A stretch of DNA of 64,000 bases from positions 248,001 through 312,000 of the forward strand of contig CALMVZ010000012.1 of assembly GCA_937873155.1 (NCBI GenBank), in the 5' to 3' direction. Origin of the DNA: an uncultured Bacteroidota bacterium. Lineage in GTDB: Bacteria > Bacteroidota > Bacteroidia > B-17B0 > Aurantibacillaceae. Shown here piece by piece: positions 9,668 through 41,379 of this stretch (its first letter is position 1; the number at the start of each line of letters is the position of its first letter). A program made the translations under genes and the position numbers. Under the pieces are notes generated by a model. That model saw only the letters and a program-made list of their open reading frames with translations. It was not told the DNA's origin and did no database searches.

Positions 9668-9671
9668 GGAA

Positions 9672-20268: not shown

Positions 20269-23200
20269 TTATCTTGGCTTCAATTTTTTCGGCTCTTCTG
20301 TTGTTTTTGGTTCTTCAGTTGTTTTAGGCTGTTCTGTGGTGTTATTTGTTCTTCCCGGCACTTTGGTTCCGTCATTTTGACTTTCCTTTCCTTTGTCGTT
20401 ACCACCATCTCCACCTTTACCGTTGCCGCCTTTTCCATTTCCTTTTCCGTTACCACCTTCTTCACACGCACCTTTAGTATCACCGTGCGCGGCATGAGCA
20501 GGCCATGCACTCTCAGCGATCTCTATCGTTTGAGGATTGTTTGGATTTCCCGGAGGAATATGACAGATAGTTATTTTTTTCTCCCCCGGCGCACAAGGTT
20601 GTTTAGAATCACCATGTGCTTCGTGAGCAGGCCATGCGCTCTCAGGAATCTCAATGGTTTGAGGATTCTGATTATTTCCCGGAGGAATATGACAGATCTG
20701 GATCTTACCACTACCGCTCGGAGGCGTAACAGTTGGTGTTGTAGCAGGAGGACAAACGCCCTTAGTATCACCATGTGCCTGATGTGCAGGCCATGCACTT
20801 TCATTGATCTCAATAGTTTGAGGATTCTGATTATTTCCCGGAGGAATATGACAGATCGTTATTTTCTTGTCTTCCGGTACAACTGTCGGTGTAGGACATG
20901 CACCTTTAGTATCACCATGTGCCTGATGTGCAGGCCATGCACTTTCATTGATCTCAATAGTTTGAGGATTCTGATTATTTCCCGGAGGAATATGACAGAT
21001 CGTTATTTTCTTGTCTTCCGGTACAACTGTCGGTGTAGGACATGCACCTTTAGTATCACCATGTGCCTGATGTGCAGGCCATGCACTTTCATTGATCTCA
21101 ATAGTTTGCGGATTCTGATTATTTCCCGGAGGAATATGACAGATCGTTATCTTCTTATCTTCAGCCGGACAGGCGCCCATTACATCGCCATGCGCCCTGT
21201 GACTTGCATAAGCTGACGAAAGGATTATCATTGTTGTTTTTGTTCCGTCACCATTATTATGACAGATCTGGATAGTATTAGTTGGTGTTGAAGTGTTAGT
21301 ATTCGCCGCTATGCAATCACCGGCGTAATCACCGTGTGCCTGGTGCGCTGACCATTGCGAAGTTTTTATAGTCATCTTAACTAATGAACCATCATTGTTC
21401 TTGTGACAGATCACCATATCAGGATCTACTAATTCCACATTACTTCCTTTCGGACAAGTTCCTTTCACATCTCCATGTGCCTGATGTTGCGGCCAGGTAC
21501 TTTCTTTAATGGTAATTGTCTGTTTCGATCCATCCGCGTTCATGTGACAAATAGTAATGTCATTATCAAGCGGCGTCACAACATTCGATTTAGGACAAAT
21601 TCCTTTCACGTCACCATGTGCCTGGTGTTGTGGCCATGTACTTTCTTTAATGGTAATAGTTTGTTTTGAACCATCTGCATTCATATGGCAAATAGTAATG
21701 TCATTATCAACCGGTGTTACAATATTTGATTTCGGACAAGTGCCTTTCACGTCACCATGCGCCTGGTGTTGCGGCCATGTGCTTTCTTTAATGGTGATCG
21801 TTTGTTTTGAACCATCTGCATTCATATGGCAAATAGTAATGTCGTTATCCAGAGGAGTTACCACATTTGACTTCGGACAAGAACCCATTACGTCACCATG
21901 AGCCTGGTGTTGCGCCCACTGACTTTGAGGAATTGAAATAGTTTGTTTTGAACCATCCGCATTCGAGTGACAAATTGTAATTACCGGATCCGGTTGCGGC
22001 TCTTCAGCCTTTTGACAAGGCCCTTCGAAATCACCATGCGCCTGGTGTGTTGCCCAGTCAGTTTCAAGGATCGTCATCGTTTGCATAGTAGCGCGATCAA
22101 CTCGGTGACAAATCACTTTTGTTTTGGGTTGTTCCTGTTTTACAATTGCAGAAGCATTTGCAGTTCCATATTGGTTTGTAGCTTTTACTTCAAAGATGTT
22201 ATTTGAATTCAAGATTAAATTAGAATTGTAATCGATAAAGCCCGTTGTCATATCGAAAGAATAATTCGTAACAACAGCGCCATTGAATTTCACTTCTAAC
22301 TGAGTCTTATCTGTAATGAAAGTTGTTTGTGCTTTGAACGGATAAGTGTTTCCTGTTGTTGTATAAGGTGAAGGATTCGGATTGATAATTACAACCGAAG
22401 GAGGGGTTACTTTTTTAGGTGCCTCATAAGTGATAACAGTAGATTTTGAATCACCCTGGCGGCCGTTCTTAGCACTCACCTGGATCAAATTTGTCCCTGC
22501 GCTTAACGACACGTTGAAATCAACATTACCTGCTGCATAAGTGAAAGGCACAACGTTTGAGTTAACAGTAACTGTAACCTGGCTCTGTGAATTAACTCCT
22601 GTTACAACTGATTTCACTTTATAAGTTGTAGTAGTTGATTTATATGGATTAACAGGAGGGTCAGTAATAACAACTGTTACAGGTTTTGCTGCAACAACGG
22701 TCGGGTTAAGAACTGCTGCCGGCTTGTAAATGATCAATTGTGTTTTCAGATCTTGCCCGAAATCATTTGTCGCTTTAATATCAACAGTATTGGTTCCTGT
22801 ATTCAAAGCTGCACTCATACTGAATACTTTTGAATTCGGGTCAAAAGCAAAGTTACTGAATGCTTGTCCGTTATAGGTAACATTAATTTGTCCGGCGTTA
22901 CTTACATTCTGAATGGTAGCATAAACATCCTGGTTACTTGCAGTGCTTGTGTATTTATTTGAACCCGGTGTTGTAATTGTAATCTGAGGCGGGATGCCTG
23001 AATAATTTACAACTGCCGATTTTGAATCACTGCCCGCTGTATTTGTTGCTGTAACTGAAACAACGTTATTTCCTACATTAAGAGGCCCGTTAAATTTAAT
23101 TGTTTTGTTGTTCCATGAATAATTTGTGATCTGCGTCCCGTTTAAAGTAACATAAAGCTGCGTCCGTTGTGTTACATTAAATACATCAGCAGTAAAAGGA

Positions 23201-24282
23201 AAATTCTTATTCACCGTTTCATTATATGGAGAAGTTGGCGGGTTAGTAATGTTTACAATCGGTTTTACAGGAACCTGTGTAACAACCTCAGCAGTTGGAG
23301 TTGTCACAACTGAATTCGTTGTTACAACTGTGTTTGTATTTGCATTGGTATAATTATTTACGTTAGTACTCGATTGTGAGCGCCCGCTTTTCCCTCCTAA
23401 ACGGATCGTCATGATCAATCCTGTATAATGGTAATAATCTTTGTTACACCCGATCCAATCATTATTATGTTTCTCAAAACCGTCGAGATAATCAGAATAG
23501 GTTCCTTGCGGGAAGGTTAATTTATATTCCCAGATCAAAGAGATGTGATCATTAAAACGGTAACCTAATCCTGCTCCACAGGAAGGCGACCATGTTAACA
23601 CATTTCCATTCTGGCTATTATTGGCATTTGATTCGTAACTATCATCTAATAAGAACCTATGCGCGGATAAAACATTGCCGCTACTTCCGGTCCCAGCTGA
23701 GTCAACCTTTAAATAATTGTATTCTTTACCATTCTTGTCCAATAAATTCAATTTTGTACGGTAACTGGTGAAACCAATCCCCCCCCAAAGATTTAATAAT
23801 ATGTTAGTACGTTCACGTAAACTATTGAACTGGATCTGCAATTCAAGAGCTCCTTCCGCGATCTTTGTTTTGTAATTATTATAAATAAAAGAAGCGCCGC
23901 CATTCGCTGCCACCGAATCATAATTCACATTTGTATTATATTTTCCATTAAGCGCCGGGTCGTTCAGGATATTGTAGTTCCTTCCGTAATCTAAACCATA
24001 AGTATTACCCCATAATCCACGGCCTTTAATGGCCAGACTAAAAAAATTGGTTTTATTCTCGAATAATCCTTTTTCTAAAGTAAACCCAACCCCGGCTCCG
24101 GTAGTAGCTCTTCTTACATCAGAAGTTTGCCACATACCGCCTGCATTTAAACCAAGACGCCATGCGTTATAATATCGGTCGGTATGTTTTTGTTTTTTTG
24201 TTGTGCTTTGTGCGTTCGTTCTTATTGAAGAAAACAAACCAACACAAATCAGTAGCAGGATGTAATTGTAATTTTTTTTCAT
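20269..24282 (-). CDS. Large envelope protein: barrel-like N-terminus, four Ig-like repeats, twelve Cys/His repeats
   Basis: From ATG 24282 (an in-frame GTG at 24312 gives a longer, less likely N-terminus) the protein has 1337 residues. Order: signal peptide (1-25); an outer-membrane-protein-like domain (about 35-300, ending LIMTIRLGGKSG); four repeats of ~90 residues with I(T)NPP..NPY starts and N(V)VSVTATN-type ends (about 340-718), probably Ig-like; twelve repeats of 40-54 residues with ICH...TI.I...W..HQAHGD..G.C (about 720-1276); and a Gly/Lys-rich then Pro/Thr/Glu-rich tail. Each Cys/His unit keeps two Cys, three His and one Asp, so metal binding is plausible but untested. Function unknown; the CHIPPGN/AHGD motif recurs in many bacterial surface proteins. 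It follows the OmpA/PorE-like gene by 101 bases. Confidence 0.85.
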   Translation of the reverse strand: MKKNYNYILLLICVGLFSSIRTNAQSTTKKQKHTDRYYNAWRLGLNAGGMWQTSDVRRATTGAGVGFTLEKGLFENKTNFFSLAIKGRGLWGNTYGLDYGRNYNILNDPALNGKYNTNVNYDSVAANGGASFIYNNYKTKIAEGALELQIQFNSLRERTNILLNLWGGIGFTSYRTKLNLLDKNGKEYNYLKVDSAGTGSSGNVLSAHRFLLDDSYESNANNSQNGNVLTWSPSCGAGLGYRFNDHISLIWEYKLTFPQGTYSDYLDGFEKHNNDWIGCNKDYYHYTGLIMTIRLGGKSGRSQSSTNVNNYTNANTNTVVTTNSVVTTPTAEVVTQVPVKPIVNITNPPTSPYNETVNKNFPFTADVFNVTQRTQLYVTLNGTQITNYSWNNKTIKFNGPLNVGNNVVSVTATNTAGSDSKSAVVNYSGIPPQITITTPGSNKYTSTASNQDVYATIQNVSNAGQINVTYNGQAFSNFAFDPNSKVFSMSAALNTGTNTVDIKATNDFGQDLKTQLIIYKPAAVLNPTVVAAKPVTVVITDPPVNPYKSTTTTYKVKSVVTGVNSQSQVTVTVNSNVVPFTYAAGNVDFNVSLSAGTNLIQVSAKNGRQGDSKSTVITYEAPKKVTPPSVVIINPNPSPYTTTGNTYPFKAQTTFITDKTQLEVKFNGAVVTNYSFDMTTGFIDYNSNLILNSNNIFEVKATNQYGTANASAIVKQEQPKTKVICHRVDRATMQTMTILETDWATHQAHGDFEGPCQKAEEPQPDPVITICHSNADGSKQTISIPQSQWAQHQAHGDVMGSCPKSNVVTPLDNDITICHMNADGSKQTITIKESTWPQHQAHGDVKGTCPKSNIVTPVDNDITICHMNADGSKQTITIKESTWPQHQAHGDVKGICPKSNVVTPLDNDITICHMNADGSKQTITIKESTWPQHQAHGDVKGTCPKGSNVELVDPDMVICHKNNDGSLVKMTIKTSQWSAHQAHGDYAGDCIAANTNTSTPTNTIQICHNNGDGTKTTMIILSSAYASHRAHGDVMGACPAEDKKITICHIPPGNNQNPQTIEINESAWPAHQAHGDTKGACPTPTVVPEDKKITICHIPPGNNQNPQTIEINESAWPAHQAHGDTKGACPTPTVVPEDKKITICHIPPGNNQNPQTIEINESAWPAHQAHGDTKGVCPPATTPTVTPPSGSGKIQICHIPPGNNQNPQTIEIPESAWPAHEAHGDSKQPCAPGEKKITICHIPPGNPNNPQTIEIAESAWPAHAAHGDTKGACEEGGNGKGNGKGGNGKGGDGGNDKGKESQNDGTKVPGRTNNTTEQPKTTEEPKTTEEPKKLKPR
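20455..22125 (-). repeat. Coding tandem repeats: twelve Cys/His units in two sequence classes
   Basis: Units 1-7 carry an NADGSKQTI-type middle (47 residues, 141 bp each where most regular), while units 8-12 carry IPPGNNQNPQTIEI (48 residues, 144 bp). Units 3-5 and units 8-10 are nearly identical to one another in DNA as well as protein, a sign of recent local duplication or homogenisation within each class. Confidence 0.85.
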
Positions 24283-24383
24283 AGTACGGTTTTTAAATGA
24301 AACAAAAAACACAGAATTGATCTGTGTCCTTTGTTACTAAAAGCTTGCCACAAACTATGGGGCTTTGTTAAAATTAGTTAAGG

Positions 24384-27062
24384 TTAAACTTTTGGTTTTT
24401 CTACAATTTTAAATTCTGTACGGCGGTTCTTCGCGTGTTCGTCGTCAGTACACTCTACCCCATCCTTACATTTATTCAGTAACCTGGTTTCACCATAACC
24501 AACAGCTTTTAACCTGGTCTTACTAATTCCTTTTGCGATCATGTAATCAACCGCGGTCTTAGCACGTTTCAATGAAAGTGTATTATTGAACTGGTCAGAA
24601 CTTTTAGAATCGGTATGAGAACTTAACTCCACCATTAAATTAGGATTCGAATTCATTACAGCAACTACTTTGTCTAATACGTTCTGTCCGGCTTTATCAA
24701 ATTTATGGTCTCCGAATGCATAATAGATATTTTCCACGATTGTCAAACTATCTTTTTTGGCTTTATCGGCTTTATTCTTTAATTCCAAAACCTGTAACCA
24801 TGGATCGTCTACGGTAAAATCACCCATGGCCACTTTATCCGCAGCTAATACTTTGAACTGGAATTTACCTTTTAAGGTACGGATCAATTCTTTATAGATA
24901 CGGCCTTTGGTATCTGCCACATATAGTTTTTTCAATGCACTGATTCGCGGATCATTCTCATCGATATCAAATAAATAATCCAGGTTCGCTTTTAAGTTCT
25001 TGAAAGCAAAACGTCCCTTTTCGTCAGTAGTAATAGTTTGGTTCAACTGATTATCCTGGGTGAATAAGAACAATTTTGCATTATTGAACGGTTTTTTATC
25101 CTGGTCGTACACGTAACCATATAACTGCATGATAAGGTCATTGTCTTCCACATCAAGGTCTTTCAACATGATCTTATCTGACGAAAGCATATTGAATTTG
25201 AATTTACCTTTCATCTGGGTATAGAAACTCTTGATCTCTTTACCGCTTTTGTTAGTTAAAATGATCTTTGTGTTCTCCGGAATATCCAATTCACTTTCTT
25301 CAATACTAACAATATAGTTTTGATCAGCCGGTAAATTACGGAACGCGAACGCACCGAATTCGTTGGTGGTCGTTGTTTCAACAACATCACCATACTGGTT
25401 AGTGATCTTAATTTTTGTGTTCTTAATTGGTTTACTCGGGTTCTCACCGAACAATAAGTTACCTGCCATCGTCAGATCATCACTCGTATAAAGATCGGGT
25501 AATCCATTCGGATCCATTGGTAAATTACGGAAAGCGAATTTCTTGTTCTCATAATTATTTGTAACACGTGATATAACTCCATTTGAATTTGCTAAATAGT
25601 AACGTGCCTTGCCTGCTAACTGGGGATCGTCAGAATCAACTTCTGCCATATATTTTTTGTCTGCATCCAAGTTCTCGAACTTAAAGAACCCTTTCTTGTC
25701 TGTTTTTGTTGAGTCGATAGCTTTTCCATCTGCACCATATAAACGTACTTTTACATTCATTGCAGGGTCGTTGATATTCTCAGTTAATAACACTGTCCCT
25801 GTAACATTAATATATTTGTTCGTGTATTTGAACCAATAGATATCATCTTTTCCTTTTCCGCCTTCACGGTTAGATGAGAAATAACCTGTCGAATCTGTTA
25901 AGAAACAAATTGAGAAATCATCTGCAGCACTGTTCAAATGCATACTCTCGTTACGGCTTAAGATCCACTTACCTTCTTTTTCCCTTGCCGAGAAAATATC
26001 TAATCCTCCAATTCCTGCTAAACCGTTTGAAGCAAAGAACAGAACGCCATCTTTACGTAAATTCGGGAACATTTCATCACCGCTGGTATTGATATCAACA
26101 CCAAGATTCACAGGTTTCTCCCAACTGTCACCGCTCTTTTTACAAACCCAGATATCTTTTCCGCCTTGTCCGCCCGGCATATCTGATGCAAAGAATAAGA
26201 AATTACCATCCGGACTAATTGAAGGATGCGCAACTGAATAATCGTCGCTGTTATAGGGGAATGGTTTAATATCACTCCATTTTGTATCATGACCACTTGC
26301 GAAATAGATCTTGGCACGGTTCACGAAATTCACATCTTTCTTTGCTTTGTAATCTACACGTGTGAACATTAATGTTTTTCCGTCACTCGTGAAACTAACC
26401 GGGCCATCATGATATTCACCATTGATCTTTCCTGATAAGGATTTAGATCCTGAAGCTTTTTCGATATTGATCTTAGAAACGAATACATTCATATACGGCT
26501 GCCCGTTGGTTTCATCTATTGTATACTCAAAGAAATCACTTTGCTTTTCTGCAACGTAAACTAATTTATTATTTAGGACAGCAGGACAAAATTCGGAACG
26601 TGATGTATTAAGACCTTCCACATTCTTTATCTCATATTCGATGGCTTTGGTTTGCCAGTATTTAATTTGCTGACAAGAACGAATAGCATTCTTCGCTTTA
26701 CTTTCAGAAGGTTTATCAGCCAAGTAAGAATTGAACTGGTTCAATGCTTCTTCATAGTGATTATTAGTTTTCAGAACATAACCGTAATTATATTTTACTT
26801 CAGGGGATACTTTACCATTCATGGCAAGGGCTTTTTTATAGCTGTCCTCTGCCTTCTTATATTCATTTAAAATGCGGTAACAATCTCCTAAGCGGATAAG
26901 GCTTTCCTGCTGGCCATCACCACTCCTTTGTGAAGCTTTCGAATACAAAGGAATTGCTTTGGCGTAATGCCCTTTGGCAAAATGTTTATCGGCCTTTTTC
27001 TTTTGGGAGAAGGCCGGGTTAAAAACTAAGAGTACAGATAAAATAACTAAGAACTTTTTCAT
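24384..27062 (-). CDS. OmpA-family envelope protein with TPR and PD40 repeats (PorE-like)
   Basis: 892 residues. A signal peptide is followed by TPR helices (about 20-130, e.g. GHYAKAIPLYSKASQRSGD), a PD40/TolB-like propeller (about 155-410, with AHPSISPDGNFLFFASDMPG and SSNREGGKGKDDIYW), several carboxypeptidase-regulatory-like beta domains (about 415-720) and a C-terminal OmpA domain (777-892, ENIYYAFGDHKFDKAG, SSHTDS, NTLSLKRAKTAVDYM). The OmpA part should bind peptidoglycan. This order is that of PorE of T9SS and its paralogues, usually encoded beside PorP/SprF, as here (41 bases downstream). It probably links a surface complex to the cell wall. Confidence 0.9.
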   Translation of the reverse strand: MKKFLVILSVLLVFNPAFSQKKKADKHFAKGHYAKAIPLYSKASQRSGDGQQESLIRLGDCYRILNEYKKAEDSYKKALAMNGKVSPEVKYNYGYVLKTNNHYEEALNQFNSYLADKPSESKAKNAIRSCQQIKYWQTKAIEYEIKNVEGLNTSRSEFCPAVLNNKLVYVAEKQSDFFEYTIDETNGQPYMNVFVSKINIEKASGSKSLSGKINGEYHDGPVSFTSDGKTLMFTRVDYKAKKDVNFVNRAKIYFASGHDTKWSDIKPFPYNSDDYSVAHPSISPDGNFLFFASDMPGGQGGKDIWVCKKSGDSWEKPVNLGVDINTSGDEMFPNLRKDGVLFFASNGLAGIGGLDIFSAREKEGKWILSRNESMHLNSAADDFSICFLTDSTGYFSSNREGGKGKDDIYWFKYTNKYINVTGTVLLTENINDPAMNVKVRLYGADGKAIDSTKTDKKGFFKFENLDADKKYMAEVDSDDPQLAGKARYYLANSNGVISRVTNNYENKKFAFRNLPMDPNGLPDLYTSDDLTMAGNLLFGENPSKPIKNTKIKITNQYGDVVETTTTNEFGAFAFRNLPADQNYIVSIEESELDIPENTKIILTNKSGKEIKSFYTQMKGKFKFNMLSSDKIMLKDLDVEDNDLIMQLYGYVYDQDKKPFNNAKLFLFTQDNQLNQTITTDEKGRFAFKNLKANLDYLFDIDENDPRISALKKLYVADTKGRIYKELIRTLKGKFQFKVLAADKVAMGDFTVDDPWLQVLELKNKADKAKKDSLTIVENIYYAFGDHKFDKAGQNVLDKVVAVMNSNPNLMVELSSHTDSKSSDQFNNTLSLKRAKTAVDYMIAKGISKTRLKAVGYGETRLLNKCKDGVECTDDEHAKNRRTEFKIVEKPKV

Positions 27063-27103
27063 TTTAAGTTTGTGATTAATTGGGATGAATCTTTTTCAGT
27101 TTA

Positions 27104-28063
27104 TTATAAAAATCTTGGTGACGTCATTTTCGATTTACTTTTCTTGATATCGAAACCTAACATGATCTCATGTGAGCTTCCTAAATTCTTTCTTGGGCCG
27201 GTAGCAATATCGTACGAATATCCTACACGGAACTGGTTGGTAACATAAACCTGGCACAAACCGCCAAAACCAAAGCCCTGGCGAACAAATACACCAAACC
27301 AGATACGTTTGGCAGCAAAGAAATTAATATTAAGATCCACTGTTGTTTTTTGCATCACACGCTTCACCATAAGAGATGGGGCAAATAAGAAATTCTCGCT
27401 GATCACGAACGATTTTCCCATAGTTATGAAGAGATGCGGCTTCAGGATATAAGATACACTGTAATCTTTTGCAACACCATTTGTATCTCTCACCTGGAAA
27501 TTACCATTGTAAACTTTTCCGTTATTTAAGTGAGTTGCGCTTAAACCCATGTAGAAAGTATTCGTTCTTAAATAAAGACCTGCGTCAACGTCTAAAGTCC
27601 CTTTGTTTGCAGTTGCAAGATCTGCCACAGCTGCATCGTCGGTATCTTTATACTTTACATCTTTAAAGTTGAATTTATAAGCGCTATAACCGGCCCTTGC
27701 ACCAAACGCTAATTTGGTTTTATTATTCACTTTCAGGATATACGAGAAGTTCGCATAACCCGCAGAGACTGTTTTAGAACCGATCTTATCGTTCAAGACT
27801 GTTAAGCCAATACCAACTTTATTGTTAGCGATCGGGCTATGCACACTGAAAACGGCTGTTGTTGGTGCGCCGGGAAATGACACCCACTGTTTTCTTACAT
27901 CAGCCACAATAGCTATGGCATCACGTGCGCCTGCATAGGCTGGGTTGATCACCATCTGGTTGTACTGGTAAAGATTGTACTGGGGATCTTGCTGCGCAAA
28001 ACCTTTAGTAGCACTTAGTGCAACAGCTAAAATAATCGCTTTTTTCATTATCGTTGTTTTCAT
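27104..28063 (-). CDS. PorP/SprF-family T9SS outer-membrane protein
   Basis: 319 residues with signal peptide and the family signature right after cleavage: QQDPQYNLYQYNQMVINPAY, then AGARDAI. The rest is a barrel with FSVHSPIANNKVGIGL and a C-terminal FRVGYSYDIAT...SHEIMLGFD region. An alternative start (ATG 28048) shortens the signal by five residues. PorP/SprF proteins help secretion or anchoring of T9SS cargo with CHU_C (type B) C-terminal domains; one such gene ends one base upstream. With the PorE-like gene it forms the usual cargo, PorP, PorE order. Confidence 0.93.
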   Translation of the reverse strand: MKTTIMKKAIILAVALSATKGFAQQDPQYNLYQYNQMVINPAYAGARDAIAIVADVRKQWVSFPGAPTTAVFSVHSPIANNKVGIGLTVLNDKIGSKTVSAGYANFSYILKVNNKTKLAFGARAGYSAYKFNFKDVKYKDTDDAAVADLATANKGTLDVDAGLYLRTNTFYMGLSATHLNNGKVYNGNFQVRDTNGVAKDYSVSYILKPHLFITMGKSFVISENFLFAPSLMVKRVMQKTTVDLNINFFAAKRIWFGVFVRQGFGFGGLCQVYVTNQFRVGYSYDIATGPRKNLGSSHEIMLGFDIKKSKSKMTSPRFL

Positions 28064-28064
28064 C

Positions 28065-30860: not shown

Positions 30861-30880
30861 TTAATGTATTTACAATTATT

Positions 30881-31690
30881 TTATTCGTGTAATAATTCTA
30901 TCCAGCCTTTTATTGGTTTGCCATTGCCGCCTCCAAGACTGATCACATAGAAATAAGTGCCCGTTGGCGCCAAGGCATCTGAATTACCGAGAGTACCATT
31001 CCATTTTTTATCAATGTTATTATATCCGGTTGCATGATATAAATGTTGTCCCCAACGGTTATAGATATCAACTTCAGCATTTGGATACTGATCAATATTC
31101 TCAATAAATAAGAAATCATTTTTTCCGTCACCATTCGGTGTCATACCATTAAATACGTTGATCAAACACGGGGCTGTATTATCATTGATCACAATATTCT
31201 CGATTTTAACAGAATCAGAAGGTACCGTCAATGTTCCGTTATTTGTAACTACTAATACAGAATACGTACCCGGTACAAGATCTCTTACTGTTGCACAATC
31301 GTTGGTCGGACATACTGTTGAAGGATACCAGTAATACATATAAGTAACCTGTCCCTGAGCGGCAGTTGAAATACCGGTCAAGGTATTAGTAATAGAAATA
31401 AAGCCATCTGTTTTACCAAGACAGCTTACATCATTATTAGCTGCCTGGCTCATTAAACCAAATTTACCTAACAAACAAGGTTGAAGAAACCCTTGCGTTA
31501 CGAAAGTAGATCCTCCCACTGTAGTTGCAATAACAGTTTCGCCAATGTTGTAATAGGCGTCATAACCTGTAGCGCCAACAGCGCCACCGCCACCCGATGA
31601 ATTTATAACCTGGATAGGAATATCCTGCGCTCTCGAGATGAAAGTGATCCCAAGAATTAAAGCGACGATAAAATTAATTTTCTTCTTCAT
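30881..31690 (-). CDS. Short T9SS cargo with CHU_C C-terminal domain
   Basis: 269 residues from ATG 31690; an in-frame TTG at 31699 would add three residues. A signal peptide (KKKINFIVALILGITFISRAQ) precedes a domain with GETVIATTVGGSTFVTQGFL followed by QPCLL, common at the start of Bacteroidota surface proteins. One short Ig-like unit follows, then the CHU_C domain (GMTPNGDGKNDFLFIENI, IYNRWGQHLYHATGY, GTYFYVISLGGG, KGWIELL). It begins one base after the upstream adhesin stop and lies 20 bases before the larger CHU_C gene. It is probably a second cargo of the same PorP/SprF system. Confidence 0.9.
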   Translation of the reverse strand: MKKKINFIVALILGITFISRAQDIPIQVINSSGGGGAVGATGYDAYYNIGETVIATTVGGSTFVTQGFLQPCLLGKFGLMSQAANNDVSCLGKTDGFISITNTLTGISTAAQGQVTYMYYWYPSTVCPTNDCATVRDLVPGTYSVLVVTNNGTLTVPSDSVKIENIVINDNTAPCLINVFNGMTPNGDGKNDFLFIENIDQYPNAEVDIYNRWGQHLYHATGYNNIDKKWNGTLGNSDALAPTGTYFYVISLGGGNGKPIKGWIELLHE

Positions 31691-31691
31691 A

Positions 31692-33770
31692 TTATTCAAT
31701 AACTATATAATTAAAATCAAATTGGTGACCGCTGTTAATAGGAATTCCGGCAGCACTCTGGTTACGTACATAAAGCCTGAATCCGAGATTAGCGGGCAAA
31801 ATGGTGGTATGATAACTTAGTCCAAAAACTTCATTAGCAGGAGATACAACAACGGTTGGAGCGCTTGCATACGGTTTATTAAATACAACTGTAAAAACCA
31901 TTTCATCAGAGGTAGCAGAATACGAACCAAACACAAAAGAAAATGTACTTACTGCGCGCAAATATCCTTTAGTATCATTACTGGATGCCCCTACCGTACT
32001 TGACGTGAATGGAAAGGCGGTGAGACCTGTACCTGTTGCCGTGAAAGTAACAGCCGGCGCAATGCCTACTGCCTTTATGTGGCCATTATTGAAAATAATT
32101 CTTCCTGTTGCGGAAGCATTGATCCCAATATCAGAACTGGTTGTAGCTCCGCCTGAAATATTAACTAATCCTGCAGTTGTACCATTATTACCTATATAAA
32201 ATTCTCCGTTACTTGTAAAAGTGTGATAAAAAGTATTTAAAAGCGGATTGCCAATATGGAGGTGGTCGATTGCACCCTGTTTATCATAAGCTAACGACAC
32301 TCCGTTTGATGCATCGTCTCCCAAGAAAAGTCCTGCCGGGTTATTGGATGAAGAGCCTGCTGTATTTATTAACCGTAGTATCGGCCTTGGGGTAGAGCTG
32401 AAAATAGAGTCGTAAATACTCATTGCACTCAAGGTTGAAGGTGAATTTGGAATCTTTCCGAAGAAGAATTTTTGATTTGCACCATCCATGAAAAAGACAC
32501 GTTTACCAAACAAACGGTAGGTTAAAGAGTTTGATGTGTTATCGAATGCTAAAAATGCTTTACTGATGTTCGAAGATTCACCAAACACTAAACCAACATT
32601 GTTTGAGCTTATACTTGTGGATAGATTTATATACGCATCATTTGTTATGCTGTGTACGTGCAATTTTTCGTTTGCACCAACACCTGTAGGTAATCCGATC
32701 CCGACAACATCAGAATTGTTTATGAGATGTACGTTTTGATCAGGACCGATCATGGTTCTTCCCCATGGACCACCTCCCGCCGGTAACCAATGTGTTCTTC
32801 CATTTAAACCTCGTGTAAGAACATCTCCCAAACCACCAGGTGTGCCAACTATAATACTATCGTTTATTAAAACTTTTCCTTTATCAAATATCGCTGAGTA
32901 GTTATTGAACTGAACCGGCCCGAATGATGATGCATACAAACCGATCGACTTTCCGGTTGCAGTACTGCTTGATGAACCTAAAGCTATCATGCCGATAGCA
33001 TCGCCTCCCGGTGAAGAACCTTGTGCAACAGAACCAACTGCAGTACCATTATTATTAACATTAAATCCGATAAAATGTCCGCCCACAATAGGGTTGATCG
33101 TTAAGCTCCCCGAGTTGACTGCGTTTCCTGAAATAAAACCCCTGATCGCCGCCTGGTTCGCTACAGCGTTTGTATGGTACACAAAAAGTGCCGCACTATC
33201 AAGACTGCTATAAGTTGAGACTTTCATTTTATTATTCCCGTTTATTACACTTTCACCAATCACAACTTGTTTTCCGTCATTAAGCACATTATCATGCACT
33301 ATCCATGTATTCGACGGATCGTCCCAATATAAAGTTTGGCCCGTTAAGGTACCGGTTGGTAATGCAGTACTGTTCCCTGATTTCTCGGCGTATAATGCAT
33401 AGGGTACGGATAATAACTTGCTTGTGCTTACGGTTGAGAAACTATTTCCGCCGGTGGGATCCACTCCTACTCGTATAAAATACGGGCCTGTTGCCCAATC
33501 TATAGCAGAAAAAGTTCCGCTATTCACAGCGCCATTACCAATAGCAGCTGTAAAAATACCTGCAGAACTTGGCATGGAAGTAGTCTCTTCATCGTACACC
33601 ACAAAACCGGTTGCGCTGCCCTGAATTATTTCAAACCGCAAACCAACTAAAGTTGTAACAAGGTTTCCGGAAGCATCGCGAGCGATACCCTGGTAATTTA
33701 AAAATTGCGGAGCTTGTGCTTTAAACAATAAGCTAATAAATAAAAATACTATAACTGAACATTTTTTCAT
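31692..33770 (-). CDS. Fibre-like adhesin 3 (LNYQGIARDASG family)
   Basis: 692 residues from ATG 33770, chosen because it restores a normal signal peptide (MKKCSVIVFLFISLLFKAQ); the frame extends to 33815 but that part overlaps the upstream gene. After cleavage comes APQFLNYQGIARDASGN and a ~115-residue module ending LLSVPYALYAEKSGN, shared with the next two adhesins at lower identity. The middle is repetitive beta-strand sequence. The last ~90 residues (DTKGYLRAV... VVFNKPYASAPTVVVSP ... FNYIVIE) match the end of adhesin 2. It looks like a phage-tail-fibre type surface protein; no T9SS sorting domain is seen. Confidence 0.82.
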   Translation of the reverse strand: MKKCSVIVFLFISLLFKAQAPQFLNYQGIARDASGNLVTTLVGLRFEIIQGSATGFVVYDEETTSMPSSAGIFTAAIGNGAVNSGTFSAIDWATGPYFIRVGVDPTGGNSFSTVSTSKLLSVPYALYAEKSGNSTALPTGTLTGQTLYWDDPSNTWIVHDNVLNDGKQVVIGESVINGNNKMKVSTYSSLDSAALFVYHTNAVANQAAIRGFISGNAVNSGSLTINPIVGGHFIGFNVNNNGTAVGSVAQGSSPGGDAIGMIALGSSSSTATGKSIGLYASSFGPVQFNNYSAIFDKGKVLINDSIIVGTPGGLGDVLTRGLNGRTHWLPAGGGPWGRTMIGPDQNVHLINNSDVVGIGLPTGVGANEKLHVHSITNDAYINLSTSISSNNVGLVFGESSNISKAFLAFDNTSNSLTYRLFGKRVFFMDGANQKFFFGKIPNSPSTLSAMSIYDSIFSSTPRPILRLINTAGSSSNNPAGLFLGDDASNGVSLAYDKQGAIDHLHIGNPLLNTFYHTFTSNGEFYIGNNGTTAGLVNISGGATTSSDIGINASATGRIIFNNGHIKAVGIAPAVTFTATGTGLTAFPFTSSTVGASSNDTKGYLRAVSTFSFVFGSYSATSDEMVFTVVFNKPYASAPTVVVSPANEVFGLSYHTTILPANLGFRLYVRNQSAAGIPINSGHQFDFNYIVIE

Positions 33771-33771
33771 A

Positions 33772-36700
33772 CTACTCAATAATAAAATAATTAAAACTAA
33801 AAGTTGTGGCTCCAAGTGTTGTAGGGAACGGCGCTCCGTTTGTACGGTAAACCCTCACAATAAAGTTTGCAGGGGAAGCTGTAAGCACCATAAAACTCAG
33901 ACCTCTAAGATCAGTTATTGGGGTTATTAAAACCGTAGGTGCTACTGCATATGATTTTTGAAAGTTATATTGAACGTCTATAAAAGCTGTACCTGCAAAA
34001 CCTGTAGCACTGGTTGAGAATGAAATAACGCCCTTTACATCAGTTCCTACACAAGTCGGGGCAAATCCCGGCATTGTAAATCCACCGGCAACAGCGACAC
34101 TAAATTGAGTTGGCGATGCGGGTGATGTTGATTTTAAATGCCCGTTCTCTAACCAAACCGCAGCATTAGAACTTCCTGCAACTGTTGGTCCGTTTATAGC
34201 ATGTATAGCGGCGCCCTGACCGTTAGTTTGTGCGATAACAGCATCTGCTCCGTTTGTTGTTGAACCTATATCAAATCTTCCTGCAGGACCTGTTCCTGCA
34301 ATTTTATTTCCATAAACTCCCGGACCAGCACCATTATTTTCACCACGCACACCTGAAGCTGTTGGATTCGAGTTATTACTTAAACCATATACACCATGTG
34401 CATTTGCAGATGAAGCTGCAGTAGTTTGAGAAGCGAAAATTGCAGCTGTGGTATTTGAACCTTCGATAACATGTAATCTTACGGTAGGATTTGCAACACC
34501 AACTCCCACATTCCCGTCATCCCTCACGTTAAATAAATTAGTACTGCCAATGTTGGTAACAACTAATGGGAATGTTCCTGCCCCTGTTGTTTTTCCCATA
34601 ACGTCAAGACCACCAATAATGAATGCAGCGCGATTCATAACAGCAGAACTGTTTTGTGCGGTCATTGCATAATTATTACCGCTATTATTAAACAGAACCG
34701 TAGGATTTACTGAACTTGTATTGTTAGCCTGGATAGATTTTCCGGAACCTGTATTCAATGCAAAAATAGTTTCTGAGTTAGAGTTATTTGTAGCTACAAC
34801 AGAACGTGCAGTTCCTGTATTATTGAATTGGGCAACGTCAAAACTGGCGTTATTCGTTGCATAAAGCACAGGGCCGGCCCCTAAGTTCGCCATATACACG
34901 GTTTCATTATTACCATTATTTGTGATCTGCATGGCGCGTCCATTACTTGTATTACTGATCATAGCAGTTTCGAAAGAACTTGTATTTGTTGCGAATAACG
35001 CTCTTCCGTTCCCGGTATGGTAAGCACCGAACGCATCACCTGAGCCTGCATTCTGCACAGTTAATGCCTGTGAAGGATTAGAAGTATTTGTAGAATTGAA
35101 ATAACCTGCACTACCGCTAGTTCCGCCATGATTAATATTCACACCAACTCCGGTTCCTATTTTACTCAAGAAAAATCCATTTCCTGAACCGCCTGCAAAA
35201 ATATTTATTGCATCCGCTGAACTCAATGAGTTGGTCATTGTTCCGTAGATCAAACCACCAAGTCCCGAATGATTTAAATTCAAAAGTCTGGCGTTGCTCG
35301 ATGTATTGTTATTTGAGAAATACCCTGCATAACCAATACCATTATGGTTCACTTGCAATGCGGTACTACCGTTAGAGGTTCCGTTTACATTGAGTTGAAT
35401 TCCATCTCCGTTCGGACCATTGTTATCAATAGTAACTGCCGCAGTTGATGCACCATTGTTCTCAACCCGGAAAACAGGACTTGTTAAAGCTGTGTTCTGA
35501 TTCAATACCTGAACAACAGGATTTAAAGTATTATTACCTGCAGGAGTAAGCATTACTTCTAACATAGCGTTACCACTGGATTGACCTACTGCAACTTTGT
35601 TAGTGCTGGGATTTGCAGCAGGGTGTATAATACCTGATGTTACTGTCCATGGTCCACCGCCAAGAGTTGCTGTACTAACTGATGTACCTTGTGTAACGGT
35701 AAGCGTGTTACCTGTAGCAGAAATAGAAGCTGCCGGAACACCAACTACATAATTGGGATGCGAACCGCTAACGGTAGCCACCCCTGCTCCTGCTAAAGTT
35801 GTAGGCTGAACGTTTATTGAATAGTTATTCAGAGCTAATGGTGTTATTGTGTTTGGTGCATTGATCTGTAGTGTAGGTGTTGCTGCACTAATTGTATAAG
35901 AAGGTGCAGACCCGCTCACAACCACGTTTGAACCACCGGAGGTCACACTTGTTTGTGCTGCACTTGTAATGGTATAGTTAGGATAAGAACCTGACACTCC
36001 TGCTCCTGTAATGTTTGTTGGGGCAATATTTATCGAATAGTTACTTGCGCTTAAAGTGCTGGCTGTATGCGGTGGATTTATCTGAAGGTTAGTTGCTGCT
36101 ACTGTTGATGCAGCCGGAGAGGTAACCACAAAGTTCGGGTATGTTCCGGATATTGTTGTTGGTCCGGCACTGGTAAATGTTGGTGATTGAACACTAATGG
36201 TAAAACTGCTTCCTGCACCAACCGGTGAAACACTTGCAATGCCTTGTGAGAACATTGCTACAGTATTACTTCCTGCACCAACCAAAGTGGTGGTTGCAAC
36301 AGCAGTACCCTGAGTTAAAGTTAAAACATTTGTTCCGGTATTGTAGTTCAATGCAGGAGGAGGAACATCGATCGTAAATGACGGATGAGTTCCGGTGACG
36401 GATGTAATACCAGATGGAATTAACGTTGGGTTGGGCGCCGTATTTGTGATAGTCCCTCCTGTTATTGAAATTCCTGTACTCGCAGTTAAAGCGGCAGGTG
36501 TGATCGTATAATCAGGATAAGCGCCAATTACATTCGGACCTGTAATATTTACTGTTTGATTTGGTGCAGTATTTGTGATCGTTCCACCTGTTATTGAAAT
36601 CCCTGTACTCGCAGTTAATGCTCCCGGAGGGTTTATTGTAAAGTTCGGATAAGTTCCGGTTACGTTCGGACCTGTGATATTTACAGTTTGAGTATTTCCT

Positions 36701-37083
36701 GCTTTCTCTGCATACAATGCATACGGAACAGATAATAACTGGCTCGTTCCAACTGTTGAATAGGAAGTTCCGCCTGTTGGGTCAATACTTACCCGAATAC
36801 TATAAGGACCCGTAGCCCAATTAATAGAAGAAAATACGCCGACCTGGTTGATACCATTTCCAATCGCCGCTGTAAAAACTCCCGCAGCTGAAGGTGTAAC
36901 AGATTGCTCTTCTGTATAAACTGGAGTAGACCCCTGAAGGATCTCAAACTTAATACCAATATTGGAAGTAACTACCGAACCGCTTGCATCACGGGCAATA
37001 CCCTGGTAATTTAAAAATTGCGGGGCTTGTGCGTAGATGGCAGAACCACCCAATAAACAAATTAATACTAGTAATTTTTTCAT
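33772..37083 (-). CDS. Fibre-like adhesin 2 (LNYQGIARDASG family)
   Basis: 1103 residues with a signal peptide (MKKLLVLICLLGGSAIYAQ). Residues 19-216 appear identical in DNA and protein to adhesin 1. Then come repeated strand motifs (TGPNV.G.YP.(F/Y)TI), a long region of short Gly/Asn/Ser-rich units of a beta-helix type, a VGVGVANPTVRLHVIEGSN segment typical of tail-fibre proteins, and a C-terminal domain (DVKGVISFSTSATGF ... APTVLITPITDLRGLSFM ... FNYFIIE) shared with adhesin 3. No recognised T9SS domain. One base separates its stop from adhesin 3. Function inferred: surface fibre or adhesin. Confidence 0.83.
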   Translation of the reverse strand: MKKLLVLICLLGGSAIYAQAPQFLNYQGIARDASGSVVTSNIGIKFEILQGSTPVYTEEQSVTPSAAGVFTAAIGNGINQVGVFSSINWATGPYSIRVSIDPTGGTSYSTVGTSQLLSVPYALYAEKAGNTQTVNITGPNVTGTYPNFTINPPGALTASTGISITGGTITNTAPNQTVNITGPNVIGAYPDYTITPAALTASTGISITGGTITNTAPNPTLIPSGITSVTGTHPSFTIDVPPPALNYNTGTNVLTLTQGTAVATTTLVGAGSNTVAMFSQGIASVSPVGAGSSFTISVQSPTFTSAGPTTISGTYPNFVVTSPAASTVAATNLQINPPHTASTLSASNYSINIAPTNITGAGVSGSYPNYTITSAAQTSVTSGGSNVVVSGSAPSYTISAATPTLQINAPNTITPLALNNYSINVQPTTLAGAGVATVSGSHPNYVVGVPAASISATGNTLTVTQGTSVSTATLGGGPWTVTSGIIHPAANPSTNKVAVGQSSGNAMLEVMLTPAGNNTLNPVVQVLNQNTALTSPVFRVENNGASTAAVTIDNNGPNGDGIQLNVNGTSNGSTALQVNHNGIGYAGYFSNNNTSSNARLLNLNHSGLGGLIYGTMTNSLSSADAINIFAGGSGNGFFLSKIGTGVGVNINHGGTSGSAGYFNSTNTSNPSQALTVQNAGSGDAFGAYHTGNGRALFATNTSSFETAMISNTSNGRAMQITNNGNNETVYMANLGAGPVLYATNNASFDVAQFNNTGTARSVVATNNSNSETIFALNTGSGKSIQANNTSSVNPTVLFNNSGNNYAMTAQNSSAVMNRAAFIIGGLDVMGKTTGAGTFPLVVTNIGSTNLFNVRDDGNVGVGVANPTVRLHVIEGSNTTAAIFASQTTAASSANAHGVYGLSNNSNPTASGVRGENNGAGPGVYGNKIAGTGPAGRFDIGSTTNGADAVIAQTNGQGAAIHAINGPTVAGSSNAAVWLENGHLKSTSPASPTQFSVAVAGGFTMPGFAPTCVGTDVKGVISFSTSATGFAGTAFIDVQYNFQKSYAVAPTVLITPITDLRGLSFMVLTASPANFIVRVYRTNGAPFPTTLGATTFSFNYFIIE
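36436..37029 (-). repeat. 594-bp direct repeat, copy in adhesin 2
   Basis: By line-by-line reading this tract looks identical to 39496-40089 (constant offset 3060). It covers residues 19-216, i.e. it starts at the signal-peptide junction. Confidence 0.9.
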
Positions 37084-37086
37084 TTT

Positions 37087-40000
37087 TTATCTTATTAAAA
37101 ACCCACTGAATGAATTCATCTTATCAGTTCCGGGGAATGCATTTGATATAGTACCTGAGGTAGCTGTTGAACCTGTTACTCTTAAGACGATAATGTCATT
37201 TTTATTGAGAGGATAAGGTGTTGCGCAATGCAAGACTGTATTCATAGTATTCCCGGTATCAGGATTAGATTGCATACACCTGTCGAGTACTGTTGCAGTA
37301 GTTGAGTTATATATCTCTAGAACACAATAATTATTTCCTGTTGCCGAAGGATTAATTGCAACCATAACACTTGCTTCCAGAAAATAAACTCCGTTCTCAG
37401 GTACCTGGTATCGTGCACCGGAAGCAGCAAAAGAAAATCCTCCGCCGTTATTGTAAATTGTACTGCTTGTATAGCCACCTAATGTATTTCCAACGTTACT
37501 CAATGTAGTTGTGCTGATGGTAACCGGAGTACTCGGCACAAATGCTCCTTTGAATCCGATATTAGGCGCCCATTTTGCATTTCCTGCTGCATCACGGGAA
37601 ACCAACACCGACCCAACATTCAAAGTACCCGGTCCGGATATCCTGATACTATCGGTATGTGTTTGTCCTTCTACATCCAACGGAGTTATAGGGTTAGTAT
37701 TCCGGATTCCAACAAAGGCATTGCTTTGCTTTAAGAATATTTGGTTCAAATGTCCATTGGGATAAGTACCGAGAATAAGATCGTATGGGGTACCAGGAAC
37801 TGCATCAGTATATAAACGCATTGCAGTTCCAATATTATCCTGCACAAGCATTTTTGTTAAATCAGAAGAATTCGGACGGAAAATGCTTAATCCTCCTGAA
37901 ACATCCAGTTTACCTTGTGGGTTATTGGTACCTATGCCAACGTTTCCTGTCGGACCATCAATAACAAATCTTTCCTGACCGGAAGTTGCATCATAGAAAC
38001 TAATTCTATCAGATCCTGCAGCATAATTAATAATATTCCATTCCCTGTTTGGATTCTTAAACATAATTCCGTTTGGCACTGTGGAAGAAGTGCTTTCTAC
38101 TTTTATATAAGTAGAAGTACTTGACGCGACATGTAATTGATTAAGCGGCCCGTTGGTTCCTATACCAACAAAACCACTACCGTTTTTAATGATCATTCCA
38201 TCACGCGAATTTCCTCCTGCCGCAAATGGCGGGTTCGGTGCAGCCAACGATTCAAATACAGCAAATTTCAGGTCACCCCCTTGTTCATAGATTCCTGTGT
38301 ATCCGCTGTTAATTCCGCCTACTCCGCCTAAAAACAAACGGCTTCCTTGCAAACGTAAACTTCCGTTGACATCTAATTCGGAAACGGTGAAGTTGTTTCC
38401 GATCGCAACGCGACCTGAAGGATCAATAAATATTCTATCGGAAACGCTACTGGTTCCAAAACTCATTGTACCGTTAAGGTTATCGTATTTGATAGATCCG
38501 GCAAAATGATTTCCCGCATTACCAAAAAACAAGCTTGAATTTGTACCTGATAAAATGGATACTGCGGTATTGCTTCCTGTCTCAACTTGCAATAATTCAG
38601 TCGCTATACCAACGTTTCCGATACCTAAATTTCCGGTAGCGTTGAACAAGCGCATACGCTGACTATTACTTGTTCTGAAAACAAGATCCTGCGCATCCGT
38701 TGTGCCTAAAAAGTTAACGCCAGGGTTTGTTCCGGTATTTCCTAATGTACTCCATGGTGCAGAAGTTCCTGTCATTACTGTTCCAAGCGTATAGTTCGGA
38801 GCGGTTCCTGCAAGTGTCAATCCGTTGCCTGCGGTATAATGAGGAATGGTTATTGAATTACTTCCCGCCGAGATCACATTACTGTTAGTTCCCGAAATAG
38901 TTAAAGTTGGTTGTGGTAAAGAGACAGAGGTATTACTGATACCGTTAGTTAGAACACCGGTTGAACTATTTGAAAAGTTCAGGGAATAAGTCGGAGATAC
39001 AACTGTATAACTCGGTGCTGATCCGTTCACCACCATATTTGTGCCGGCTGTTACTGATGTTTGTGCAGGTGCAGACGGGAGCGCTACTGAGTTACCGCCC
39101 GTGATACTGATACTTCCTGAACCAATTGATAAACTTGGAGTAGCGTTAATAGTAAAGTTAGGATAAGCGCTATTTACGGTCACATTAGTTCCGTTAGAAA
39201 TAACAACTGTTTGATCCATAGCAGTATTTGTAACTACTGTTCCTGAAGTAAATGCGATACCTGCTCCACTGGTATATGTAGTTCCTGTAGGTAGAGTCAC
39301 TGTATTTCCATCAGTGATACTTAATTGATTTCCAACAATGGTTAAAGATGGTTGTGGTACTATCGTGAAACCAGGACCCGTACCACTAACAAGAATACTT
39401 GATCCTGTTGCCGTTATACTTGTTGCCGGCGTTGGTGTAATGGTAAAGTTCGGATATGTTCCGATTGCACCGGTGATAGTTACCGTTTGATCCATCGCCG
39501 TATTTGTGATAGTCCCTCCTGTTATTGAAATTCCTGTACTCGCAGTTAAAGCGGCAGGTGTGATCGTATAATCAGGATAAGCGCCAATTACATTCGGACC
39601 TGTAATATTTACTGTTTGATTTGGTGCAGTATTTGTGATCGTTCCACCTGTTATTGAAATCCCTGTACTCGCAGTTAATGCTCCCGGAGGGTTTATTGTA
39701 AAGTTCGGATAAGTTCCGGTTACGTTCGGACCTGTGATATTTACAGTTTGAGTATTTCCTGCTTTCTCTGCATACAATGCATACGGAACAGATAATAACT
39801 GGCTCGTTCCAACTGTTGAATAGGAAGTTCCGCCTGTTGGGTCAATACTTACCCGAATACTATAAGGACCCGTAGCCCAATTAATAGAAGAAAATACGCC
39901 GACCTGGTTGATACCATTTCCAATCGCCGCTGTAAAAACTCCCGCAGCTGAAGGTGTAACAGATTGCTCTTCTGTATAAACTGGAGTAGACCCCTGAAGG

Positions 40001-40143
40001 ATCTCAAACTTAATACCAATATTGGAAGTAACTACCGAACCGCTTGCATCACGGGCAATACCCTGGTAATTTAAAAATTGCGGGGCTTGCGAAAACGAAA
40101 TGGCGCTAATAAAAAGCAGAATGAAAAATAGAAGTTTCCTCAT
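37087..40143 (-). CDS. Fibre-like adhesin 1 with C1q/TNF-like C-terminal domain
   Basis: 1018 residues; signal peptide MRKLLFFILLFISAISFSQ. Residues 19-216 appear identical to adhesin 2. The middle has TGP/ITGG-type beta repeats, then tail-fibre segments (NLGIGNVGIATELLQVETGS, GNVGIGTNNPQGKLDVSGGL). The last ~135 residues differ from adhesins 2 and 3 and look like a C1q/TNF-type jelly roll: GGYTSSTIYNNGGGFSFAAS, YQVPENGVYFLEASVMVAIN, SFSGFLIR. Such a domain is usually trimeric. It is the first gene after a good promoter match (40159-40190) and lies three bases before adhesin 2. Role as a trimeric surface fibre is inference. Confidence 0.83.
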   Translation of the reverse strand: MRKLLFFILLFISAISFSQAPQFLNYQGIARDASGSVVTSNIGIKFEILQGSTPVYTEEQSVTPSAAGVFTAAIGNGINQVGVFSSINWATGPYSIRVSIDPTGGTSYSTVGTSQLLSVPYALYAEKAGNTQTVNITGPNVTGTYPNFTINPPGALTASTGISITGGTITNTAPNQTVNITGPNVIGAYPDYTITPAALTASTGISITGGTITNTAMDQTVTITGAIGTYPNFTITPTPATSITATGSSILVSGTGPGFTIVPQPSLTIVGNQLSITDGNTVTLPTGTTYTSGAGIAFTSGTVVTNTAMDQTVVISNGTNVTVNSAYPNFTINATPSLSIGSGSISITGGNSVALPSAPAQTSVTAGTNMVVNGSAPSYTVVSPTYSLNFSNSSTGVLTNGISNTSVSLPQPTLTISGTNSNVISAGSNSITIPHYTAGNGLTLAGTAPNYTLGTVMTGTSAPWSTLGNTGTNPGVNFLGTTDAQDLVFRTSNSQRMRLFNATGNLGIGNVGIATELLQVETGSNTAVSILSGTNSSLFFGNAGNHFAGSIKYDNLNGTMSFGTSSVSDRIFIDPSGRVAIGNNFTVSELDVNGSLRLQGSRLFLGGVGGINSGYTGIYEQGGDLKFAVFESLAAPNPPFAAGGNSRDGMIIKNGSGFVGIGTNGPLNQLHVASSTSTYIKVESTSSTVPNGIMFKNPNREWNIINYAAGSDRISFYDATSGQERFVIDGPTGNVGIGTNNPQGKLDVSGGLSIFRPNSSDLTKMLVQDNIGTAMRLYTDAVPGTPYDLILGTYPNGHLNQIFLKQSNAFVGIRNTNPITPLDVEGQTHTDSIRISGPGTLNVGSVLVSRDAAGNAKWAPNIGFKGAFVPSTPVTISTTTLSNVGNTLGGYTSSTIYNNGGGFSFAASGARYQVPENGVYFLEASVMVAINPSATGNNYCVLEIYNSTTATVLDRCMQSNPDTGNTMNTVLHCATPYPLNKNDIIVLRVTGSTATSGTISNAFPGTDKMNSFSGFLIR
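39496..40089 (-). repeat. 594-bp direct repeat, copy in adhesin 1
   Basis: Same tract as 36436-37029, same orientation, with no difference seen on reading all lines, including third codon positions. The flanks differ on both sides, so the edges are sharp. Confidence 0.9.
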
Positions 40144-40158: not shown

Positions 40159-40190
40159 TAAAGTTAATGAATTAAATCTTAAAGACAAAA
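40159..40190 (-). promoter_or_regulatory. Promoter of the adhesin/T9SS locus
   Basis: On the minus strand TTTTG (40190-40186) is followed after exactly 19 bases by TAACTTTA (40166-40159), close to the Bacteroidota pattern TTTG-N19-21-TAnnTTTG. Transcription would start about 11 bases before ATG 40143. Confidence 0.55.
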
Positions 40191-41343: not shown

Positions 41344-41379
41344 AATACTTGAAATTAATTTTGAGGCAAATATACCAAG

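Follow-up and report, generated by a model that had tools for sequence, protein, structure and literature searches.

According to the available text of two reports, T9SS cargo proteins with a type A sorting domain (CTD) use PorV, and those with a type B CTD use their cognate PorP/SprF protein (PMC9143113, PMC12618676). Secretion of type B cargo requires the cognate PorP/SprF, and a PorE homologue has been proposed to provide static anchoring (PMC12618676). A precedent is provided by the PorE-PorP-PG1035 complex of Porphyromonas gingivalis, the PorE-like protein of which binds peptidoglycan (PMC9143113). Like the locus described here, this complex and the Fjoh_3952-3951-3950 proteins of Flavobacterium johnsoniae bring together a cargo with a type B CTD, its cognate PorP/SprF and a PorE-like protein, and static anchoring has been proposed for them. 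In contrast, it is the cargo in both systems that is presumed to act as surface protein or adhesin, and the accessible parts of the sources describe neither a CTD-less fibre nor the QGF domain considered below (PMC9143113, PMC12618676). The SprB-SprF pair of F. johnsoniae also couples a type B CTD with a PorP/SprF shuttle, but SprB is, as far as the same sources go, a single giant adhesin that is mobile, bears a CTD of its own and has no adjacent PorE-like gene (PMC9143113, PMC12618676). No CTD-less T9SS cargo was found in the available part of PMC10994853.

Fibres of another kind have been described in Bdellovibrio bacteriovorus, whose mosaic adhesive trimer (MAT) fibres carry a conserved domain of ~130 aa directly after the signal peptide (Caulton et al., PMC10769870). 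The surface element bound by this N-domain awaits identification according to the authors, and neither a T9SS nor a QGF partner is mentioned in the accessible text (PMC10769870). The fibres of the present locus resemble them in their conserved, β-rich N-domain immediately behind the signal peptide, their long shaft and their exchangeable tips. The fibre genes lie in a 64,000-nt stretch of DNA from an uncultured Bacteroidota bacterium, called the window, and are followed by that of a small T9SS cargo protein with a QGF domain. As judged from sequence, such QGF cargoes are frequent neighbors of these fibres across Bacteroidota. No description of the pairing was found among titles and the beginnings of abstracts in the open-access literature, which does not prove its absence in print; in its available part, a report on tandem genes for colony spreading deals with a different pair, pep25 and lbp26 (PMC9950754).

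Organization of the Locus

Between positions 40143 and 20269, eight consecutive minus-strand ORFs follow one another with intergenic gaps of 3, 1, 1, 20, 1, 41, and 101 nt, as an earlier note on this DNA had stated; these figures use the ATG starts at 33770, 31690, and 24282, which lie downstream of TTG or GTG starts in three of the ORFs. The family names given there for two CHU_C proteins, a PorP/SprF protein and a TPR-PD40-CarboxypepD_reg-OmpA protein were borne out by domain searches. The locus comprises the following features.

40159..40190, minus strand: promoter-like site, TTTG-N19-TAACTTTA
37087..40143, minus strand: F1, fibre protein with signal peptide, LNYQG N-domain of ~110 aa, repetitive shaft and own tip, without T9SS signal
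33772..37083, minus strand: F2, fibre protein sharing its anchor and first shaft repeats with F1
31692..33770, minus strand: F3, fibre protein; the listed ORF starts at TTG 33815, the likely start is ATG 33770
30881..31690, minus strand: C1, small T9SS cargo with signal peptide, QGF domain, central part and CHU_C type B CTD; proposed adaptor
31475..31627, minus strand: QGF domain of C1, covering residues 25-75 of its listed ORF (G000:C12:279475-279627) and matched with E 2.9e-18 by a profile of which C1 itself is a row
28065..30860, minus strand: C2, FG-GAP/CHU_C type B cargo
27104..28063, minus strand: PorP/SprF-family outer-membrane barrel (TIGR03519), expected cognate shuttle or anchor of type B CTDs
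24384..27062, minus strand: PorE-like TPR-PD40-CarboxypepD_reg-OmpA protein (NF052230), expected peptidoglycan link
20269..24282, minus strand: Cys/His protein with, by eye, a barrel-like N-terminal part and Ig-like repeats, and with 12 Cys/His repeats (ICH...AHxAHGD)
19078..20265, minus strand: sugar nucleotidyltransferase gene, 3 nt downstream of the Cys/His gene

C1 and C2 are T9SS type B cargoes by their scores against PF13585 (93.1 and 80.9 bits, cut-off 27) and TIGR04131 (53.9 and 50.8 bits, cut-off 35), and the PorP/SprF gene product scores 226.3 bits against TIGR03519 (cut-off 90.55). As the TPR-PD40-CarboxypepD_reg-OmpA order is present and the NF052230 score of 405.8 bits stays under the curated cut-off of 600, the corresponding protein is called PorE-like. 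The host genome has SprA (G000:C11, 2410 bits, TIGR04189 cut-off 200).

Fibre Proteins with a MAT-like N-domain

In F1-F3, the LNYQG domain begins at the apparent end of the signal peptide, and profile matches indicate that it is homologous to the Bdello_MAT_N domain (NF053851) of the Bdellovibrio MAT fibres. The model matches F1 (E 6.5e-10) and F3 (E 2.2e-9), as well as 18 of 18 diverse LNYQG N-domains (set A3; E up to 0.01, best E 5.4e-12), while no match is listed at E 0.1 for F2, though the DNA of its N-domain is identical to that of F1 from nt 60. Since the scores shown (39.0 bits for F1, 37.3 for F3, and 38.1) lie under the curated cut-off of 60 bits, with about half of the model covered, the fibres are called MAT-like and are not filed as members. 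At the DNA level, F1 and F2 are identical over about nt 60-600, i.e., over the anchor and first shaft repeats, and similar only at chance level beyond; they are mosaics of one anchor with two different shafts and tips. The N-domain of a related fibre, from locus L078, is all-β in an AlphaFold2 model. The genome of the window has three LNYQG matches in total, all at this locus. No match to PHROGs was found for F1-F3 or the Cys/His protein, and a prophage origin thus finds no support from that collection.

No T9SS sorting domain was matched in F1-F3 at E up to 0.1, and our own profiles detected a T9SS CTD in none of 174 LNYQG ORFs, some of which are cut by contig ends or come from duplicate records. 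The fibres therefore lack a T9SS signal, as the earlier note had remarked.

The QGF Domain and Its Pairing with Fibres

The QGF domain is about 50 aa long, has no Pfam match, and is combined in C1 with a type B signal. In relatives, LNYQG genes often adjoin a gene whose product is small and secreted, shows the pattern V-x-S-x-GG...Y-x-IGE...TQGF-x-QP and has a T9SS CTD; in the window, this product is C1. When applied to 41 related genomes, which contain 106 LNYQG matches, a QGF profile built from 24 rows detected 61 places, distributed over 34 of these genomes. Fifty-two of the 61 lie within 3.5 kb of an LNYQG match and two more within 10 kb, all 54 on the same strand. The other seven have no LNYQG on their contig. 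From a reading of the DNA around each of them, two lie where a contig ends (G018, G037), one (G016, locus L182) belongs to a QGF-CHU_C-PorP set behind an S74 fibre and a collagen-like protein, and four are real orphan cargoes (G010, G027, G033, G040). In the reverse direction, a QGF lies within 10 kb of 71 of the 106 LNYQG genes and further off from one, and it is missing from the contigs of the other 34.

Among 77 named loci, at least two of which (L074, L082) repeat genomes among the 41, 43 have a directly adjacent pair, one (L117) has a single gene in between, and 33 have no QGF in the stretch analyzed, a few of these (e.g., L090 and L099) being truncated within a type A cargo where the contig ends. 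By record title, the loci with adjacent pairs include Flavobacteriales, Bacteroidales, and Chitinophagales. At L119, a small type A cargo resembles, by eye, a diverged QGF protein.

In a sample of 296 genomes of the phylum, LNYQG was found in 83, QGF in 35, and SprA in 229 (one of them weakly). LNYQG is also present in 34 of the 35 QGF genomes, and at least 43 of 49 QGF places are within 5 kb, on the same strand, of the 54 LNYQG matches listed. All 83 LNYQG genomes and all 35 QGF genomes are among those with SprA (Fisher P 1.5e-11 and 1.3e-4, respectively, uncorrected for relatedness). None of the 67 genomes without SprA has an LNYQG match, although these genomes may come largely from one family (17 of the 20 listed are from f33).

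Conservation of the Operon and Limits of the Transcript

Within the family of the window's genome (25 genomes, G000-G024), a type B QGF-CHU_C cargo gene followed by that of PorP is present in 14 (G000, G001, G002, G006, G007, G008, G009, G012, G014, G015, G016, G018, G020, and G023); in 12 of them, the gene immediately upstream encodes an LNYQG protein. In G003, G004, and G005, the same upstream genes are followed by a run of LNYQG genes that is cut off by the end of the contig. A second CHU_C gene (C2 in the window) and the Cys/His protein occur in only part of the relatives; in several members of the family, a relative of the latter is encoded behind the OmpA protein. Outside the family, the order fibre, QGF-CHU_C, PorP recurs in G030, G039 (where a single gene separates fibre and cargo), and G077 (L169), as well as in two named loci, L087 and L088. 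A search of related genomes for conserved order, which the earlier note had proposed, has thus found it both inside and outside the family, which excludes that LNYQG genes never adjoin PorP/CHU_C genes.

The Bacteroidota promoter consensus is TTTG-N19-TAnnTTTG. The promoter match announced ahead of F1, at 40159-40190, is present and one base off this consensus. By eye, it is conserved in six aligned genomes of the same genus, the window's included (G001 and G003 were left out of the alignment), and lies where their intergenic regions are most conserved; it is not conserved in two genomes of other genera, and it is absent from the list of a sigma-70 scan. Within 20269-40143, which the earlier note read as a single ~20-kb unit following this site, no minus-strand terminator-like site was found inside any of the gaps. 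Terminator-like sites are not in excess over shuffled sequences (12 vs 9.1 ± 3.2 and 10 vs 9.7 ± 2.7), and sigma-70-like matches inside the unit are about as frequent as by chance (29 against 31.3 and 36 against 37.0, counting both strands). Some of the latter lie on the minus strand just ahead of C1 (31720-31691) and C2 (30924-30875), and internal promoters may therefore exist. The ends proposed for the unit call for two corrections. It is not closed at 20269, because the sugar nucleotidyltransferase gene begins 3 nt downstream and is probably a continuation of the transcript; in L038 and L044, such a gene lies 2 and 16 nt behind the last gene of the unit, respectively. The head is not certain either, as co-directional genes for OmpH/Skp-like and PRA-PH proteins are found upstream of F1, together with a strict-consensus promoter (41397-41367).

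CTD Type, PorP, and Gene Order

By our own profiles, 73 of 94 distinct QGF cargoes have a type A CTD and 21 a type B CTD. PorP is encoded within the three downstream same-strand genes in none of the 73 type A cases and in 18 of the 21 type B cases, or 20 of 21 if two genes just beyond this limit are counted (L038, which continues L037, and L087, where PorP is the fourth gene); the third exception, G010, has no PorP. Similarly, in short stretches (about 3 kb) of L152-L180, PorP follows three of three type B and none of 22 type A cargoes. An OmpA protein in the next three genes was likewise found for none of the 73 type A cargoes. This split fits the reported use of PorV by type A CTDs and of a cognate PorP/SprF by type B CTDs.

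An LNYQG gene is directly adjacent to 64 of the 73 type A and 15 of the 21 type B cargo genes; among these 79 pairs are two records that are duplicates, and some cargoes flanked by fibres on both sides appear twice. The fibre gene precedes the cargo gene in all 15 type B pairs, and the cargo gene comes first in 56 of the 64 type A pairs; at L067, a type B cargo gene is followed by that of PorP and then by an LNYQG gene. Eight fibre-QGF-PorP loci have no second CHU_C gene between cargo and PorP (L044, L049, L053, L057, L058, L064, L088, and L185). The PorP/PorE platform suggested in the earlier note is not a general partner of the fibres. The small QGF cargo is more general in this role, and PorP appears where this cargo is of type B.

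Co-variation of Cargo and Fibre

Shared ancestry and linkage affect the distances of the QGF domain and of the CTD alike, which makes the CTD of the same protein a control. In distance matrices of 68 type A pairs, the correlation with the fibre N-domain was 0.79 for QGF vs 0.61 for the CTD (bootstrap difference 0.18, 0.09-0.26), with a partial correlation of 0.68 (0 of 2000 permutations). For 18 held-out pairs, whose domains were called with profiles from the first set, the values were 0.81 vs 0.72 (difference 0.09, 0.003-0.20) and 0.58 (0 of 2000). These comparisons, from which shared ancestry is not fully removed, indicate that co-variation with the fibre N-domain is stronger for QGF than for the CTD of the same cargo.

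A residue rule, in which Glu in the QGF motif goes with Asn, Lys, or Gln before YQ in the fibre, and Gln with Ser or Thr, fits 75 of 79 pairs of the data in which it was noticed, 6 of 85 pairs with other letters having been dropped beforehand. In five genomes with both classes, 12 of 12 partners fit; with a sixth, G025 (one of two), the product of the within-genome probabilities is 0.014. On held-out loci, 13 of 17 pairs fit (Fisher P 0.10), with four of 21 dropped, at least two of them for letters misread by the pattern. As the rule falls short of the usual level there, no contact is claimed.

Structure Predictions

A single chain was modelled with AlphaFold2, obtained by reading through an in-frame type A pair that belongs to the named relative L078, not to the window. 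The fibre domain and the CTD are well folded, in blocks with pLDDT values mostly of 82-97, but QGF has pLDDT values of 29-58 (pTM 0.48), or 33-55 (pTM 0.51) with a deeper QGF alignment; neither of the two models gives a confident sign of docking of QGF on the fibre domain. In searches with the first model (Foldseek, VIA-align, and BFVD), its CTD matched those of T9SS cargo in the translocon complexes 8glk, 8gl6, and 8gl8 and that of mirolase (8qb1). Outside the CTD, generic Ig-like tandems were found and no lead to QGF. A sequence search of the PDB gave no match for F1, F2, or C1.

Proposed Mechanism and Alternatives

The QGF cargo is, in our judgment, rather probably a T9SS-delivered adaptor that anchors and perhaps exports the fibres, in the case of this locus on the PorP/PorE-like proteins. 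The fibres, of the MAT kind and devoid of a T9SS signal, would reach the periplasm by Sec, and their N-domain would be recognized by the QGF domain of C1. Through its type B CTD, C1 would enter the T9SS and be passed on to the PorP/SprF barrel encoded alongside, and the PorE-like OmpA protein would tie this barrel to the cell wall, as reported for homologues. The fibres would thereby be held on the outer membrane and might be brought through it. The same QGF-fibre pair occurs elsewhere in the phylum with a type A CTD and no neighboring PorP, and it would therefore be the CTD of the adaptor, not the fibre, that chooses the platform. The binding of QGF to the N-domain, the order of events, the surface location, and the assembly or export of fibres on the platform are what we infer from regularities read in sequence, namely the pairing, the CTD-less fibres, the CTD-type/PorP rule, the co-variation, and the restriction to SprA genomes in the sample. 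Such regularities point to a conserved fibre-adaptor module tied to the T9SS, in which the CTD of the adaptor goes with the platform.

Several results count against an adaptor and fit, in part, a reading that we consider somewhat unlikely, according to which fibres and QGF cargo are separate adhesins, merely co-regulated as neighbors, the fibres reaching the surface by a T9SS-independent route as they must in Bdellovibrio. No QGF is in view at 33 of the 77 named fibre loci or on the contigs of 34 of the 106 fibre genes, four QGF cargoes are orphans, and the models show no confident docking. Bdellovibrio fibres, moreover, have a homologous N-domain. The T9SS is not known from Bdellovibrio, which displays MAT fibres nonetheless, so that a MAT-type N-domain can work without it. 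Mere co-regulation, however, accounts poorly for the fact that QGF is seldom apart from fibres (54 of 61 places within 10 kb), that both gene orders occur, and that QGF tracks the fibre domain beyond the CTD of the same protein. The lack of LNYQG in the 67 SprA-less genomes also speaks against it, though these are possibly largely one family.

That the QGF cargo trimerizes or caps the fibre base, as a chaperone-like subunit and not as a membrane anchor, appears quite improbable. The short, Gly-rich QGF, which is not confidently folded in the models, would suit such a role, and the slot is open to other fibres with S74 or collagen repeats, as in G016, which also counts against the adaptor reading; the CTD/PorP rule, in contrast, is best explained if the destination of the cargo matters, i.e., by anchoring. 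We regard it as very improbable indeed that QGF is irrelevant and that the fibres attach directly to C2, PorP, or the PorE-like protein. All three are encoded together in the window, but the eight fibre-QGF-PorP loci do without a second CHU_C gene between cargo and PorP, and type A pairs without PorP or an OmpA protein in the next three genes.

Adaptor function is thus the best-supported reading, and export of the fibres by the T9SS the bolder one. In the latter, which is possible though doubtful, the T9SS would move CTD-less cargo: folded or trimerizing fibres would ride through the SprA pore, or assemble at its exit, bound to a small adaptor with QGF and CTD. The adaptor domain would have been shuffled between type A and type B signals, placing the same fibre family by the PorV route or on PorP/PorE. 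QGF would, in that case, be the missing anchor of MAT-type fibres.

Implications

In the work cited here, T9SS cargo is identified by its CTD, and a CTD-less class displayed via an adaptor would escape such lists. The QGF-fibre pair is, in addition, a small and testable candidate for the anchor of MAT-type fibres, an open question according to the available text of PMC10769870. The split between type A and type B CTDs offers a natural experiment on the roles of both CTD classes with one payload.

The set built around QGF cargo with a type B (CHU_C) C-terminal domain occurs in other arrangements in the relatives. At one locus (L182, G016:C13, 7094-12876), a fibre with an S74 chaperone and a collagen-repeat protein occupy the fibre slot, replacing the LNYQG fibres, and the QGF-CHU_C, PorP and OmpA genes come after this slot. 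Genome G023 has, besides the usual operon (L069) and a type A pair (L068), a second, rearranged type B set (L067, contig C84, 16908-19428), in which the order is QGF-CHU_C, PorP, LNYQG fibre.

At L070 (G025:C65, ~1700-10300), an LNYQG gene lies close to genes that resemble a contractile-tail or injection-system cluster, among them a 542-aa protein that looks tail-sheath-like. A QGF-LNYQG pair (L042, G005:C14) is immediately followed by a gene (10834-11463) whose product is presumably phage tail-collar-like, and a large protein of 1404 aa (L129, 4935-9149, minus strand), encoded opposite an LNYQG gene, is Cas9-like in appearance.

In the window, the protein encoded at 20269-24282 carries Cys/His repeats of the form ICH...AHxAHGDxxGxC (12 counted by eye), a candidate metal-binding repeat. 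Pfam returned PgaPase_1 alone, marginally (24.9 versus 24.4 bits), with no individual stretch passing. The DNA repeat of this gene also produces a long plus-strand shadow ORF (20377-21216).

A script scan of positions 20000-43500 yielded a sole match to TTTG-N17-21-TAnnTTTG, on the minus strand at 41367-41397, ahead of an OmpH/Skp-like gene; transcription from this site may also cover the fibre genes.
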